DNA from: Fidelibacterota bacterium
Lineage (GTDB): Bacteria > Fidelibacterota > Marinisomatia > SCGC-AAA003-L08 > D37C17
Direction of reading: 5' to 3'
Assembly (NCBI GenBank): GCA_002718585.1
Contig: PBFG01000006.1
Span: 1 to 55,195, forward strand
DNA length: 55,195 nucleotides
Part shown: in pieces, positions 30,442-42,393 of the stretch
How the letters are laid out: every line of letters starts with the position of its first letter
Numbering within the stretch: position 1 is the first letter of the stretch
The notes under the pieces: model-generated
Told to the model about the DNA's origin: nothing
What the model saw: only the letters and a program-made list of their open reading frames with translations
Database searches by the model: none
Position numbers and translations under genes: made by a program

Positions 30442-31257
30442 TTAATCATTAGGAATCTGAGACCATTCAGTATTTGTTATTAAAAATGATAACTCTTCAG
30501 CATTCGAGTTTGCAAATGATATAGAACCATTTTGACCATAAGAAGGAATAATCTCAATCAAGCCATTAGCATTAGTATAATTACCTCTAAACGTAGCAAG
30601 TTTAATATTTGGTGAACTAGGAATGAAATTTCCTGAGTAACTAAAAATTATTGCTGATTGATTGGAATTATCATAATTTTGCATTCCTGCTTGAATTGCA
30701 TCATTACCAGGCATTACTTCAATTATATCAAAATTTAAAGCATTTAGAGAAAACTGATAAGCAGATATTGATGTATTAGAGTTTGAGCATACTGTAAAAA
30801 TAACCTGTTGACTAGATGGATATGATACTCCACAAAGAAATACTTCTAAATCATATATACAATTTTGATTTGCATCGAGAGTACAATTATTAGAATCATT
30901 AGCATCGCAATTATTACAACAGTCAATATTATATATACATTCTTGTTCACAGTTAAATAAATTATCTGGGTAATTATCAGGGAATATGCACGAGCCATCA
31001 TCAATTAAAATATTCTCATTGTAATTACATCCATCTGGATTAGTACAACCTCCTATATATGTTCCATCACAATCAATCAAATTATTAGGATAGTCTTCAG
31101 GATAAAAACAGGAATTATTATCTATTTCTGCGTTAGGCTCGTAATTACAGGCTTCAGAATTTGTGCAGCCTTCAGAAAAAGTATACTCATTATTCTCATC
31201 ACAAGAAAAAATAAATATTAAAATAAAAATTAAATAAGATTTATTAAGGTTTAATAT
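30442..31257 (-). CDS. Surface lipoprotein with Cys-rich repeats and cohesin-like domain, ATA start
   Basis: 271 residues if started at the ATA at 31257. The reading frame is open upstream of the only TTG (31080) and there encodes a clean lipoprotein signal (hydrophobic stretch, then I-F-I-F-S-C with Cys20) plus the first repeat unit. No ATG, GTG or TTG can start it, but AAGGA lies 8 nt before the ATA, which overlaps the hpf stop. The N-terminal half has repeats with G-C-T-N-x-x-x-C-N-Y and D-x-G/N-S-C. The C-terminal about 130 residues read as a cohesin-like beta sandwich (S-A-Y-Q-F-S-L-N near the start). It is probably anchored in the outer membrane and could hold dockerin-bearing proteins. 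The cohesin assignment is by pattern only. Confidence 0.6.
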   Translation of the reverse strand: MLNLNKSYLIFILIFIFSCDENNEYTFSEGCTNSEACNYEPNAEIDNNSCFYPEDYPNNLIDCDGTYIGGCTNPDGCNYNENILIDDGSCIFPDNYPDNLFNCEQECIYNIDCCNNCDANDSNNCTLDANQNCIYDLEVFLCGVSYPSSQQVIFTVCSNSNTSISAYQFSLNALNFDIIEVMPGNDAIQAGMQNYDNSNQSAIIFSYSGNFIPSSPNIKLATFRGNYTNANGLIEIIPSYGQNGSISFANSNAEELSFLITNTEWSQIPND

Positions 31258-31529
31258 GTTGATTTTCCTTTTTGGATTTGTGACTTAATATTATCTATTG
31301 CTTTAACCATTGTCTTTTCAAACACAGATGAATAACATTTTGAAATATAAGTATTTTTTTTTGATTGAACTATTAATTCAACTTTTTCTGCTCTAGATTC
31401 TTTTAGCAATACAACTTTAATACTTGAGATATTTTTATCAAATGTATCTAGCTTAAGAAGTTTCGAATTAATTAATTCAAGAAGATCTGAACTTGGAGTA
31501 AAACCTCTAGATGTTATATCAATCTTCAT
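31251..31529 (-). CDS. hpf: Ribosome hibernation promoting factor, short form
   Basis: 92 residues, the short HPF/YfiA type without a dimerisation tail. It starts M-K-I-D-I-T-S-R-G-F and has the helix L-L-E-L-I-N-S-K-L and the basic patch of the beta-sheet. It binds the 30S decoding region and inactivates ribosomes in stationary phase. AGGA lies 8 nt before the ATG. It sits oddly within a surface-protein cluster, and its stop overlaps the ATA start of the lipoprotein. HflX at 7.9 kb could reverse its effect. Confidence 0.88.
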   Translation of the reverse strand: MKIDITSRGFTPSSDLLELINSKLLKLDTFDKNISSIKVVLLKESRAEKVELIVQSKKNTYISKCYSSVFEKTMVKAIDNIKSQIQKGKSTY

Positions 31530-31545
31530 AATTTTTCCTAACTTT

Positions 31546-32583
31546 TTAATTTGTAATTCTTATGCCGACAGGTCTATGATCTGAAATATAATAATCATAA
31601 TTATTAAAACTATTAAAGAAAATTTGATCAATTCTAATAGTAGATGCATCATACTCCAAATTAAATATTTCATTGGTTATTAAAATATGATCTAAATCAC
31701 TGGGCCATGAAGGAAATGACCAGTATGGAATCATACTAGGGTCTTCTGATATATAATAATCTACAAAATAATATTCATCTGGAGATTCCAAAAAAGGATC
31801 GAATACATTATAGTTATCTACTAGTAAATCATTAAAATCACCAAGTAAAACAACTTTTTCATTAGATAAATTATTAGAAATATATTGATCTAATCTAATA
31901 GAAGATTCTAGTCTTCTTTCCTCTGAGCCATCACAGCATTTATAATGCACGTTGATGATTGTATAGTTTGTATTATTATACGAAATTCTTAAGACATATG
32001 GTAATCTCCAAGCAAACTCATACTCATATTGAGATAAAATTGTATATGGCGACTGTAAAATATTAACATTACTTGTATTAATTAAATATGAAAGCTCTCC
32101 CCAACTAGAATTATAATCAGAGCGATATGCAGTCCAATTTGCTCCAAGATTATTTTTAATTTCATTAAGTGACGAATTACTTTCTATTTCTTGAAGAGCA
32201 ATTATATCTACATATAATTCATCTATTATACTGCTCAACGTATCTACAGTATTATTATTTTTTGGGAAATTTTCTATATTCCAAGTAAGAATATCTAGAG
32301 TCTCATCACTTCCATAAGCATTATCAGAGATTGGAGGAGGATATAAAATTATATTTATGAGTTCAACAATATCAATAATATTTAAAATTTGATCATTATT
32401 TAGGTCGCCTATATAATTATAGACTTCATTTTCAAGAATAAGGTTTACAAGAACAATAACGTCTACCACATTTATTGTACCATCCTCATTCATATCACCT
32501 AAATTTCTATTAAATGAATCAAGTTCAGTTAAATAAATAAAAGAAAAAAAAGTAGTTAATATAATATTTTTAATTAATTTCAA
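31546..32583 (-). CDS. Exported endonuclease/exonuclease/phosphatase-fold protein with N-terminal dockerin
   Basis: 345 residues from the TTG at 32583, 1 bp after the previous stop; the longer ORF starts at another TTG 105 bp into the neighbouring gene. A signal peptide (1-23) is followed by a dockerin (about 29-80: G-D-M-N-E-D-G-T-I-N and G-D-L-N-N-D-Q-I-L-N, each with a helix). The EEP domain follows: T-W-N-I-E-N near 95, L-Q-E-I-E for the metal Glu, N-V-H-Y, G-D-F-N-D, and S-D-H-R-P for the catalytic Asp/His. It may be an extracellular DNase or phosphodiesterase that scavenges phosphate, or a lipid phosphatase. Dockerin at the N-terminus is less common. Confidence 0.8.
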   Translation of the reverse strand: MKLIKNIILTTFFSFIYLTELDSFNRNLGDMNEDGTINVVDVIVLVNLILENEVYNYIGDLNNDQILNIIDIVELINIILYPPPISDNAYGSDETLDILTWNIENFPKNNNTVDTLSSIIDELYVDIIALQEIESNSSLNEIKNNLGANWTAYRSDYNSSWGELSYLINTSNVNILQSPYTILSQYEYEFAWRLPYVLRISYNNTNYTIINVHYKCCDGSEERRLESSIRLDQYISNNLSNEKVVLLGDFNDLLVDNYNVFDPFLESPDEYYFVDYYISEDPSMIPYWSFPSWPSDLDHILITNEIFNLEYDASTIRIDQIFFNSFNNYDYYISDHRPVGIRITN

Positions 32584-32584
32584 T

Positions 32585-33295
32585 CTATCTGCATTCCTGA
32601 TTAGATATATTCTGCCAATCCCATGTAAAATTACTAAAATTTTCAAAACATGAAAAATTAAATTCGTTGCATAAATTATTTTTTTCAAGTTTTATTTCAC
32701 ATGAGGCATCTAAATTACATATTGAGGTTGGTAAATATTCCAAAATATTATTATTTAACCATAAAATTTTCAGACTAGATAGGCTCCCTATATTTTCAGG
32801 TAAACGAATCATACTATTGTTATTTAGGTATAATTCTTCTAAATATTGCAGATTTTCAATATTATCAGGTAAAAAAGATATATTTCCATTAGTATTAGGC
32901 TTTCCACTTAGATCTAATAGCTCTATATAATTTAAATTAGAAATAGAATGAGGTATATGGTCAATACTATTAAATTCTTCAGAAAAAAGAATAAGTTCAG
33001 TTAGCCTTCCATTATAAGACCATGATTGAATACCAATATTAATTAAATTATAATCGATGTAAAAAGAATTGCTATCTGAAAAATCTTGCAAAAACATTAA
33101 ATCTCCACAATTATACAAATTCCCTGAATAATTAATATAGTCAGAGGATGAAGAACATTGACTTAGAGACAATGATATCTGATAAGAACTATCATCATTA
33201 TCACATGAATATGTAAAAATTGATATTACTAAAAACAAAATTTTAAGATTATTTATAAAATATAGATTAGTTTTCACGATCTTCAAAATTTTCAT
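32585..33295 (-). CDS. Leucine-rich-repeat lipoprotein
   Basis: 236 residues. An N-terminal signal ends in I-F-T-Y-S-C, a lipobox with Cys31. From about residue 90 to 200 there are four leucine-rich repeats (L-x-x-L-D-L-S, L-x-x-L-Y-L-N-N-N, L-x-x-L-W-L-N-N-N and similar), followed by a short Cys-containing tail. It is probably a surface protein for binding other proteins or glycans. The start at 33295 overlaps the 35-residue ORF by 29 bp; a GTG at 33277 would shorten this to 11 bp and give a more normal signal length, so the start is uncertain. Confidence 0.7.
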   Translation of the reverse strand: MKILKIVKTNLYFINNLKILFLVISIFTYSCDNDDSSYQISLSLSQCSSSSDYINYSGNLYNCGDLMFLQDFSDSNSFYIDYNLINIGIQSWSYNGRLTELILFSEEFNSIDHIPHSISNLNYIELLDLSGKPNTNGNISFLPDNIENLQYLEELYLNNNSMIRLPENIGSLSSLKILWLNNNILEYLPTSICNLDASCEIKLEKNNLCNEFNFSCFENFSNFTWDWQNISNQECR

Positions 33296-39035: not shown

Positions 39036-39672
39036 TTTTTATCATAATTGAATTATTTTTATTAAAAGGACCTACAGCTTTTCTAGTTAGAGAGGTTAAG
39101 TATCCAAGTGTATTTAGATTTATTGCTATATCTTTTGCCAGTGACCTAATATATGTTCCCCTGCCACATTTTACATATATTTGTATTTTTTTAGAATTGT
39201 AGTCTAAAAGTCTAATATCGTAAATCTCTATATTTCTAGTTTTTTTCCTTATAAAAATATCATTTCTTGCATACTTATATAAAGGAACACCATTTAATTT
39301 TAAAGCAGAAAAATATGGAGCAGTTTGTTTTATTTTTCCTTTAAATTTTTGGAGAACATTATTAATTAGATTTTCATCAATATTTGGTACTTCTGAAGCT
39401 TTAATCACTTCGCCTGTTAGATCTAATGAATCAGTCTCAAGGCCAAGTGAAATCGTTGCAATATATTCTTTCTTGAGTGCCATTATACTTTCAATTTTCT
39501 TGGTTTTTGTTCCGGTACAAATTACTATAACGCCTTCGGCAAAAGGATCTAAAGCTCCACAGTGACCTATTTTTATTTTTTCTTTGTGTGATTTTTTAAG
39601 TGCACTGACAACTTCAAAAGAGGTAGGTCCAGCAGACTTCCATACAGAGAAAACTTCATTATCGTTAATCAT
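39013..39672 (-). CDS. truB: tRNA pseudouridine-55 synthase
   Basis: 219 residues; a compact form without the C-terminal PUA-type domain of the E. coli protein. The catalytic loop is G-A-L-D-P-F-A-E-G with the nucleophile Asp near 42; also K-x-G-P-T-S near 12-17 and C-G-R-G-T-Y-I-R-S-L-A-K-D. It converts U55 of tRNAs. Overlaps rbfA by 8 bp (ATGATTAA). Confidence 0.95.
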   Translation of the reverse strand: MINDNEVFSVWKSAGPTSFEVVSALKKSHKEKIKIGHCGALDPFAEGVIVICTGTKTKKIESIMALKKEYIATISLGLETDSLDLTGEVIKASEVPNIDENLINNVLQKFKGKIKQTAPYFSALKLNGVPLYKYARNDIFIRKKTRNIEIYDIRLLDYNSKKIQIYVKCGRGTYIRSLAKDIAINLNTLGYLTSLTRKAVGPFNKNNSIMIKNEYFKKN

Positions 39673-40024
39673 CTTTTAAAATTCTATTTATTTTATCATA
39701 GTATTGATAATCATCAGATAAAAAAAACTTTATTTTTGGCATATATTTCATATTTAAAGATGCACTTATTTTAAATTTAAGTGAATTTGTTTTAGATTTT
39801 ATTATCTTTAAATAATCTTTTGATTCAAAAGAATCTTCCTTGTTATAAAAACTTATAAAAATATCAGCATTACGTAAATCTTGGGATACTTTTACATCCG
39901 AAATACTCATCATTACATAATTTGGAAAAAGAGTTTCTTTTAATAGAATTTGACTTACTGTTTTTTTTATTTGATCAGCAATTCTCTGATTGCGTTTATA
40001 TGGTTTTCTAGAATTAGTTTTTAT
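39665..40024 (-). CDS. rbfA: Ribosome-binding factor A, ATA start
   Basis: 119 residues from an ATA at 40024. The first ATG (39913) would lose 37 residues that are clearly RbfA: R-I-A-D-Q-I-K-K-T-V-S-Q-I-L-L-K-E forms the first helix and F-P-N-Y-V-M-M-S-I-S-D-V-K-V-S-Q-D-L-R the KH-like strand region. No ATG, GTG or TTG lies in frame between there and the upstream TAA. The ATA has AAGGA 7 nt upstream and overlaps the infB stop, exactly where a start is expected. RbfA assists 30S maturation and cold adaptation. The position infB-rbfA-truB is canonical. Confidence 0.85.
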   Translation of the reverse strand: MKTNSRKPYKRNQRIADQIKKTVSQILLKETLFPNYVMMSISDVKVSQDLRNADIFISFYNKEDSFESKDYLKIIKSKTNSLKFKISASLNMKYMPKIKFFLSDDYQYYDKINRILKDD

Positions 40025-42393
40025 TTCAGAGTCCTTTTAACTTCTTTTTTTGCATATACTTCGATTATATCATTTTCTTTAAAATCATAGAATCCAGATA
40101 CACCAATTCCGCATTCAAATCCATTTTTAACCTCATTTACGTCTTCTTTAAATCTTTTAAGAGAAGTTAAGTTGCCTTCATAGATAATTTCTCCTTCTCT
40201 TAGTACTCTTAAAAGAGAATTTTTAATTACCTTACCTTCTTCTACATAAGAACCTGATATTATACCTACTTTAGGAATTTTAAATGATTCTTTTACTATG
40301 GCTCTGCCAACAGAGTCTTCTACAATGTCAGGATCTAATAAACCTTCTAAAGCAAGCTTAATTTCATCAATTGCCTCATATATGACAGAATAATAACGTA
40401 TTTCGATGCCATATGACTTTGCAAGCTTACGGGCATTAACTGATGAACTAACATTAAAGGCTACGATTATAGCATTTGAAGCTGAAGCTAAACTAATATC
40501 GTTTTGATTAATCATTCCTGCAGATTTTAAAACAATTTTAATTAAAACCTCATCATTTGACAAATCCATCAAAGAATCACTTAAAGCCTCAATTGAACCA
40601 TCTACGTCACCCTTGATAATAATATTTAATTCTTTTGAAGCTCCAGTTTTAATATTTTTTCCAACCTGATCTAACGTTATTTTACTATGTCTTTGGAAAG
40701 TTGCTTCTCGCTCTAACTGAGATCGTTGCAGAGCTATTTTTCGTGCCTCTCTCTCATCTTTGTAAATTTGAAATAAATCACCCGCATTAGGAACTGTTTT
40801 AAAACCTAATACTTGTACAGGATCTGAAGGACAAGCTACGTTGACAATATCACTTCTTTCATTTAAAAGTTCTCTGATTTTTGAATACTGAGCACCACAC
40901 AAGAAAATATCGCCTTTTTTTACCTTACCGTGTTGCACAAGAATAGTTGCAATTGGTCCAAGCCCTTTGTCTAGTTTTGATTCAACAATAACAGCTCTTG
41001 CATCACACTCGAAATTAGCTTTTAGATCGAGAACTTCAGCTTCAATTAATATTTTTTCAAGCAAATCATCTATTCCAGTACCTTTTTTTGCTGAAATATC
41101 TGCACTTTGATATTTTCCACCCCATTCCTCTATTAAAATATTTTTTTCAGATAATTGTTTTTTAACATTATCTGGATTAGAAGCAGGTAAATCAATTTTA
41201 TTTATTGCTATAATCATTGGAACATTTGCTGCTTGAGCATGATCGATAGCTTCTAAAGTTTGGGGTTTAAGTCCATCGTCAGCTGCAACAATAAGAACAA
41301 CTATATCAGTTACCTGAGCGCCTCTAGCTCTCATTGCCGTGAATGCAGCATGTCCAGGAGTATCTATAAATGTAATTTTTTTTCCGTTTTTAACTTTTAC
41401 CTCGTATGCACCAATATGCTGAGTAATACCGCCAGCCTCGCCTGCAATTATATTTGTATCTCTAATGTAATCGAGGAGCGATGTTTTTCCATGATCCACG
41501 TGTCCCATAATAGTAACTACAGGTGGTCTGTTTTTAAGATTCGTTGTATCTATTAAATCATCTTCTTTAGATTCATCTTTATAGATATCTAATCTTTCAA
41601 CCTCAAATGAAAATTCATCGGCTACCATCTCAATGGTGTCCATATCCAATCTTTGATTTATAGTCACCATAAGCCCTAGTCCCATACATTTCATTATTAC
41701 TTCCTGGCTAGAGACTTTCATGGTTTGTGCAAGTTCATCTACAGTTGTAAACTCTGGTACTTTTATTAAATTAGATGTAGTTTCATTTGAAAGGTCAATT
41801 AAGTCTTTTTTCTTTTTAATCTTTTTCTTAGTTTTTTTATTTATAGGTAAAGCGCTACTAGATTTTATTTCAGCTTTTTTAAACTTAGATTTTTTATTAC
41901 TGTTAATTTTATCAGCTATTGATGACATATCAATCTTTTTAAGTTTTCTCTTAGGTGGTTTAGCTTGAATAATAACAGGTTTGTTTTCTGTAACTATTTC
42001 CTCTTTTATGTCAGATTCAGTATTTTTAGGGGCAGTACTAGTTTCTTTTTGAATATCAGGAGATTTTTCGTCGGATTTTCCTAAGTCAGATTCGCTACTT
42101 ACATCTTTTAAAGATTTCTGTTCTGTTGAAATAAATTCGACAACTTGATCTTTTTTTAACTCAATGGTATCTTCCTTATTTAAGATTATTTCTTTTCTTG
42201 CTATTTCTTTTCTCTGCCTTTCAATTGAAGCCTTTTCTTTTGAAAACTCCATAAGGATAGAATCATAAATATTATTATCAACAGGAGCCATGTGGTTTGC
42301 AACTGAGATATCTTTGGATTTCAGAAATTTAATAATCTCAACATGAGAAATATTTAGCTCTTTTGCTATTTGATATATTCTTTTCTGTGCCAT
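40021..42393 (-). CDS. infB: Translation initiation factor IF-2
   Basis: 790 residues. The N-terminal IF2-N domain (about 1-55), a long charged, low-complexity linker (about 60-205), a second N-terminal segment, then the GTPase with G-H-V-D-H-G-K-T near 297-304, D-T-P-G-H-A-A-F near 344-351 and N-K-I-D near 398-401, and domains II-IV. It places initiator fMet-tRNA on the 30S subunit. It starts 3 bp after nusA. IF-2 contributes to start-codon choice, so it is of interest given the ATA starts nearby. Confidence 0.97.
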   Translation of the reverse strand: MAQKRIYQIAKELNISHVEIIKFLKSKDISVANHMAPVDNNIYDSILMEFSKEKASIERQRKEIARKEIILNKEDTIELKKDQVVEFISTEQKSLKDVSSESDLGKSDEKSPDIQKETSTAPKNTESDIKEEIVTENKPVIIQAKPPKRKLKKIDMSSIADKINSNKKSKFKKAEIKSSSALPINKKTKKKIKKKKDLIDLSNETTSNLIKVPEFTTVDELAQTMKVSSQEVIMKCMGLGLMVTINQRLDMDTIEMVADEFSFEVERLDIYKDESKEDDLIDTTNLKNRPPVVTIMGHVDHGKTSLLDYIRDTNIIAGEAGGITQHIGAYEVKVKNGKKITFIDTPGHAAFTAMRARGAQVTDIVVLIVAADDGLKPQTLEAIDHAQAANVPMIIAINKIDLPASNPDNVKKQLSEKNILIEEWGGKYQSADISAKKGTGIDDLLEKILIEAEVLDLKANFECDARAVIVESKLDKGLGPIATILVQHGKVKKGDIFLCGAQYSKIRELLNERSDIVNVACPSDPVQVLGFKTVPNAGDLFQIYKDEREARKIALQRSQLEREATFQRHSKITLDQVGKNIKTGASKELNIIIKGDVDGSIEALSDSLMDLSNDEVLIKIVLKSAGMINQNDISLASASNAIIVAFNVSSSVNARKLAKSYGIEIRYYSVIYEAIDEIKLALEGLLDPDIVEDSVGRAIVKESFKIPKVGIISGSYVEEGKVIKNSLLRVLREGEIIYEGNLTSLKRFKEDVNEVKNGFECGIGVSGFYDFKENDIIEVYAKKEVKRTLK

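Follow-up and report, generated by a model that had tools for sequence, protein, structure and literature searches.

An apparent AUA start codon in a lipoprotein-like gene overlapping hpf and in a few further genes of a Fidelibacterota lineage

The lipoprotein-like gene and its start region

At which codon does translation begin in a gene whose frame offers no ATG, GTG or TTG from the preceding stop up to codon 60? The gene encodes a lipoprotein-like protein of 271 aa (30442–31257, minus strand) and lies in the window, the whole 55,195-nucleotide stretch of DNA that was analyzed (contig C8, bases 1–55195, in a 1.46-Mb assembly; 28% G+C; genome G000). The open frame spans 31284 to 30442 on the minus strand, and the probability of 68 stop-free codons at the base composition of the window is 0.003. 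The minus-strand letters around the start are CCAAAAAGGAAAATCAACATATTAAACCTT, and the translation of the frame begins ILNLNKSYLIFILIFIFSCDENN. The first in-frame canonical codon, TTG 31080, is codon 60 of the ATA-started protein and is internal to it. The proposed start codon, ATA (31255–31257, minus strand), is the one plausible start, and it is conserved in a sister species (G001, Candidatus Neomarinimicrobiota MAG SAT24, PANV01000052.1, loci L031/L062). We consider it likely that the gene is translated from AUA at 31257–31255, helped by an upstream AAGGA and probably by ribosomes that terminate on the preceding gene.

The preceding gene encodes an hpf-like ribosome hibernation factor (31251–31529, minus strand), which matches PF02482 with an E-value of 2.6e-8 and 34.9 bits against a cut-off of 23.7; the TIGR00741 match falls under its cut-off. 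Directly upstream of hpf is a gene for a protein of the endonuclease/exonuclease/phosphatase family that carries a dockerin type I region (31546–32688, minus strand). The original prediction placed the ATA on the hpf stop codon. The ATA overlaps the preceding hpf codons ACA TAT instead, and the stop TAA (31253–31251) lies 1 nt downstream, so that the genes overlap by 7 nt with the stop counted and the start remains within a few nucleotides of the stop. A Shine-Dalgarno-like AAGGA (31266–31270, minus strand) is located within the 3´ end of hpf with an 8-nt spacer to the ATA and is also present in G001. The coordinates originally given are correct, and the weight of AAGGA as evidence is lower than had been supposed: it is found upstream of 4% of the long genes here versus a background of 1%, and its conservation is not independent because the motif is itself part of the hpf reading frame. 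What favors AUA is thus geometry together with precedent in the lineage.

The closest competing reading is that another nearby non-canonical codon is used, for example AUC 31263–31261, or that hpf-terminating ribosomes reinitiate without a fixed start codon. This AUC, 6 nt upstream of the ATA, is kept in both species, and overlapping genes commonly show reinitiation, with variable dependence on the Shine-Dalgarno sequence (PMC6728339). However, the AUC follows AAGGA by only 2 nt, which is too near, whereas the AUA has the 8-nt spacing and is the same codon as in infC and rbfA (below); we regard this reading as unlikely.

The N-terminus, (M)LNLNKSYLIFILIFIFSC, contains one Lys, a hydrophobic run and a Cys. 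The putative signal peptide ILNLNKSYLIFILIFIFSC extends to the presumed lipidated Cys19 (31201–31257, minus strand), as judged from the translation and from the substitutions in the sister species (I to F and I to V), which retain the hydrophobicity and the Cys. The strict lipobox is [LVI][ASTVI][GAS]C, from which IFSC deviates at position -2; we infer that Cys19 is lipidated. Two Cys-rich repeats (GCTNxxxCNYxxNxxxDxxSCxxPxxYP; 30967–31170, minus strand), defined from the translation and an alignment with family paralogues, follow the signal segment, and the first of them lies upstream of TTG 31080. The translation thus shows the signal-like segment and the Cys-rich repeat that were claimed for this upstream region. 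By eye, the layout continues with a Cys-rich linker and a β-rich C-terminal domain, in which the motifs GFQF...GFSxxGxxIP are common to large proteins of the same family. A low-confidence AlphaFold model (pLDDT 30) places a helix at residues 6–17 and is too poor for fold comparison. The protein had been called cohesin-like, which is plausible by eye given its β-rich C-terminal domain, and a dockerin protein is encoded beside hpf. However, neither the protein nor the genome gives a match to Pfam Cohesin (PF00963), and the quality of the model prevents a comparison of folds, so that the name is not borne out.

Apparent non-canonical starts in the lineage

A second ATA start in the window had also been predicted and is presumed to be that of rbfA (39665–40024, minus strand; TIGR00082 56.4 bits, over the cut-off), whose apparent start at 40024–40022 is preceded by AAGGA at a distance of 7 nt (40032–40036, minus strand). 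The upstream gene is infB (IF-2; 40021–42393, minus strand; TIGR00487 776 bits), and its stop TAA shares bases with the rbfA ATA in the sequence ATAA. Among 49 rbfA loci of relatives, 17 lack a canonical start before the conserved domain; ATA stands at the junction in 13 and ATT in 4. The 13 ATA loci comprise G000, a third member of the genus (G002) and 11 more, and they are distributed over three genera (g1, g5 and g7) and family f3. The remaining 32 loci mostly have TTG, with some ATG. The AUA start of rbfA may be newly described.

The same codon recurs in infC, which encodes IF3. A canonical start is absent from 24 of the 30 infC loci across the order, and all 24 have ATA, commonly in the context ATA GCN AAR after GGAG(G). 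The apparent AUA of infC spans families f1–f5 of the order (L212–L241; G000 C21:97510-98010); in G000, a chance ATG 8 codons upstream corresponds to ATA in the sister species. Two further genes were recognized by homology. A DegT/DnrJ aminotransferase (PF01041; L161 18459-19586, plus strand, G000 C30; relatives L262–L273) has ATT in four species (G000, G001, G002 and G008) at a start that is fixed by relatives ([M]KFIDL), most of which carry ATG or TTG at the same position. A CDP-alcohol phosphatidyltransferase (PF01066; L161 8169-9026, plus strand, G000 C30; relatives L274–L287) has ATT in G000, ATA in G001 and ATG in relatives. The comparison across loci argues strongly for non-canonical starts in infC and rbfA and for an AUU start in the aminotransferase, and with moderate strength for the AUU/AUA start of the phosphatidyltransferase. 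G000 additionally contains a second rbfA (C15:6766-7086) and a partial second infC (C1:2-310) that are unlike the genus copies, and these extra homologues possibly stem from contamination of the MAG, which is estimated at 4.82%.

To gauge the frequency of such starts, stretches of about 853 kb of the 1.46-Mb G000 assembly, 715 kb of G001 and 767 kb of G002 were scanned. Four clear cases (the lipoprotein, rbfA, the DegT aminotransferase and the phosphatidyltransferase) were found among about 370–500 homology-tested G000 genes, about 0.8%, which is a lower bound because genes with a chance ATG or TTG nearby escape the homology scan; infC is additional and lies outside the sampled stretches. Ribosome profiling in Caulobacter gave 0.25% for near-cognate starts other than CTG (PMC4117421). 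The genome-wide enrichment of ATA behind ribosome-binding sites that the original prediction envisaged is not seen: ATA occurs 5–9 nt after a purine-rich site at 0.85%, versus about 0.7–0.95% for other codons and 1.03% for ATG. On the letters of the DNA, AUA start use in the lineage is real but rare. The idea that the lineage uses ATA starts thus holds for infC across the order and for rbfA in several genera, together with AUU/AUA in two other genes, and does not extend to general use.

Altered residues in IF3 had been suggested as a further sign. The IF3 of the genus departs from the order consensus at six positions, each conserved in at least 85% of the order sample, and none of these substitutions is here tied to a loss of fidelity. 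Given that the order-wide start of its own gene is AUA, IF3 probably still discriminates, as it does in S. aureus, Streptomyces and E. coli. Two CAU tRNAs were found in the examined stretches, and neither has clear initiator features. Start selection could be generally relaxed through an altered IF3 or initiator tRNA, in which case the lipoprotein would be one of many random products. The AUA/AUU starts in several unrelated genes and the IF3 substitutions fit such a change. However, such starts were detected in just about 4 of the 500 genes tested, without genome-wide enrichment, the AUA kept by infC suggests that discrimination continues, and this order-wide AUA is older than the genus, which makes a general relaxation very unlikely. 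An altered genetic code or a changed initiation system as the cause of the lipoprotein AUA start is likewise not supported, as too few genes are involved.

Comparison with the sister species

The G001 orthologue of the lipoprotein has an intact frame with 84% amino acid identity and retains the same AAGGA, spacer, ATA and TAA. Between the two species, the differences in codons 31–60 number 0/0/12 by codon position. The dN/dS is 0.072/0.585 (about 0.12) for codons 1–59 and 0.083/1.04 (0.08) for codons 19–59, which is similar to 0.083/0.475 for the remainder of the gene (whole gene 0.16); the signal-peptide stretch taken alone has too few changes to demonstrate coding constraint. The intact frame with low dN/dS and the sister orthologue indicate that the protein therefore begins upstream of TTG 31080, near the hpf stop, in both species. 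A pseudogene was rejected as unlikely on the intact frame of the sister and the dN/dS of about 0.12 before TTG 31080. The comparison rests on one orthologue with 93% DNA identity over the locus, and the gene was found in two species only. With only this single, close orthologue, the start is positioned by geometry, no relative having an ATG that would mark it. At codon 10, an in-frame ATT is replaced by TTT in G001. The original prediction that the gene must start near 31257, with ATA as the best candidate, agrees with the lack of a canonical start in two species and with the conserved ATA.

The orthologue is absent from G002, where hpf instead adjoins a pair of small genes of unrelated sequence (L096 3962-5216) whose products look by eye like secreted or outer-membrane proteins, and no further orthologue beyond G001 was found in the genome-contig collection.

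A start at TTG 31080, with the upstream frame decayed or noncoding, has in its favor that this is the first canonical codon, but the position is TTT in G001, whose first canonical start is codon 92 of its open frame. Such a start would also split the repeat region and drop the signal peptide, and the dN/dS of 0.08 in codons 19–59 speaks against it, so that it is hardly probable. A sequencing or assembly error that hides a true ATG could be suspected from the N-rich, lower-quality stretches elsewhere in the assembly. However, the sister MAG, a separate assembly, has the identical ATA stretch, and rbfA, another gene, shows ATA in 13 loci; as originally argued, error by chance becomes less likely, and we give it next to no weight. 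An odd start codon in a single MAG is not necessarily an error and can be validated by comparison with a sister species. Equally improbable is an HPF-lipoprotein fusion made by a -1 frameshift close to the end of hpf. A -1 shift from hpf would indeed lead into the lipoprotein frame, and the sequence there is rich in A, but no X XXY YYZ heptamer occurs in the hpf frame (CAA AAA GGA AAA TCA ACA TAT TAA), and the fusion would place the signal peptide behind 90 residues.

Proposed initiation at AUA and relation to known systems

In the preferred reading, initiation at the AUA, ribosomes would bind AAGGA in the 3´ end of hpf, be handed over from hpf termination, or both. fMet-tRNA would then initiate on AUA, where the initiator tRNA (CAU) would pair with the first two bases and leave the third mismatched. 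Because of this mismatch, IF3 should hold the output low, in dependence on the IF3 level and on hpf translation, and the product would be a surface lipoprotein made at a low, IF3-sensitive rate. From the features of the locus we infer the initiation at AUA, the coupling to hpf, the repression by IF3 and the low expression. The AUA looks like a real but uncommon start of an already known type, weak and sensitive to IF3.

The best-known member of this class is infC, which starts with ATT in E. coli and ATC in Streptomyces, with autoregulation by IF3 (PMC5472188). In S. aureus, infC, ccpN and citZ start with AUA, and AUA reporters of ccpN and citZ reach roughly 10% to a third of AUG (PMC13009471). 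The start shared by these infC genes, an AUH after a Shine-Dalgarno sequence that is conserved in relatives, is AUA in the infC of the present order. The lipoprotein differs from IF3 in not being a translation factor, which makes autoregulation inapplicable, and its AUA overlaps the upstream gene and has a modest ribosome-binding site. Closer in kind are ccpN and citZ (AUA) and cvfC1 (AUU) of S. aureus, which are ordinary genes where initiation is weaker but does take place (PMC13009471). These are backed by profiling, and ccpN and cvfC1 have an extended Shine-Dalgarno sequence, whereas the lipoprotein has AAGGA only and was recognized by sequence comparison. Streptomyces sigR, which has a GTC start repressed by IF3, resembles the lipoprotein gene as a non-translation gene with a conserved rare start beside a partner gene (PMC5472188), but it differs in its codon and in that mutation demonstrated its regulatory role, while that of the lipoprotein start is putative. 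The locus also resembles stop-start overlapping pairs, in which start and stop are a few nucleotides apart and a Shine-Dalgarno-like sequence lies in the upstream gene (PMC6728339). Such pairs typically have ATGA or TGATG, whereas the lipoprotein has ATAtTAA and rbfA has ATAA, without an ATG.

RbfA acts in 30S maturation and HPF in ribosome hibernation. It is conceivable, though we hold it doubtful, that AUA marks an IF3-sensitive set consisting of infC, rbfA and, in this genus, the hpf-coupled gene; the IF3 level would then adjust 30S assembly in step with the hibernation operon, and a mild change of IF3 in the lineage may permit more AUH starts. The conserved AUA at both infC and rbfA provides a natural test of whether RbfA synthesis, too, is governed by the IF3 level. 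In annotation, gene callers restricted to ATG, GTG and TTG would truncate the lipoprotein at codon 60 with loss of the signal peptide, and they would truncate or miss rbfA and infC across much of this uncultured phylum.

Several other irregular frames were observed. A formyltransferase-like gene in L154 (7738-8355, plus strand), by eye similar to purN, has its ATG in frame in G001, whereas in G000 a long A-run shifts the ATG out of frame; the cause would be a homopolymer error or slippage. In a gene of L067 (15107-16006, plus strand), comparison with G001 and G002 shows a TAA at about codon 5, directly followed by ATA (TAA ATA). Conserved in-frame TGA codons are present in open reading frames of L066 (2804-4321 and 651-995) and L082 (5385 and 3483), for example in TGG-TGA-GGA-CCA-TGT (W-U-G-P-C). 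These frames likely encode secreted, thioredoxin-like proteins with selenocysteine in a UGPC motif; one of them carries dockerin and Por sorting domains. The genome contains selA. Short frames after a conserved TGA in L072 (6317-6685) and L077 (402-593), with the sequence behind the TGA kept in other members of the genus, are possible additional selenoproteins.
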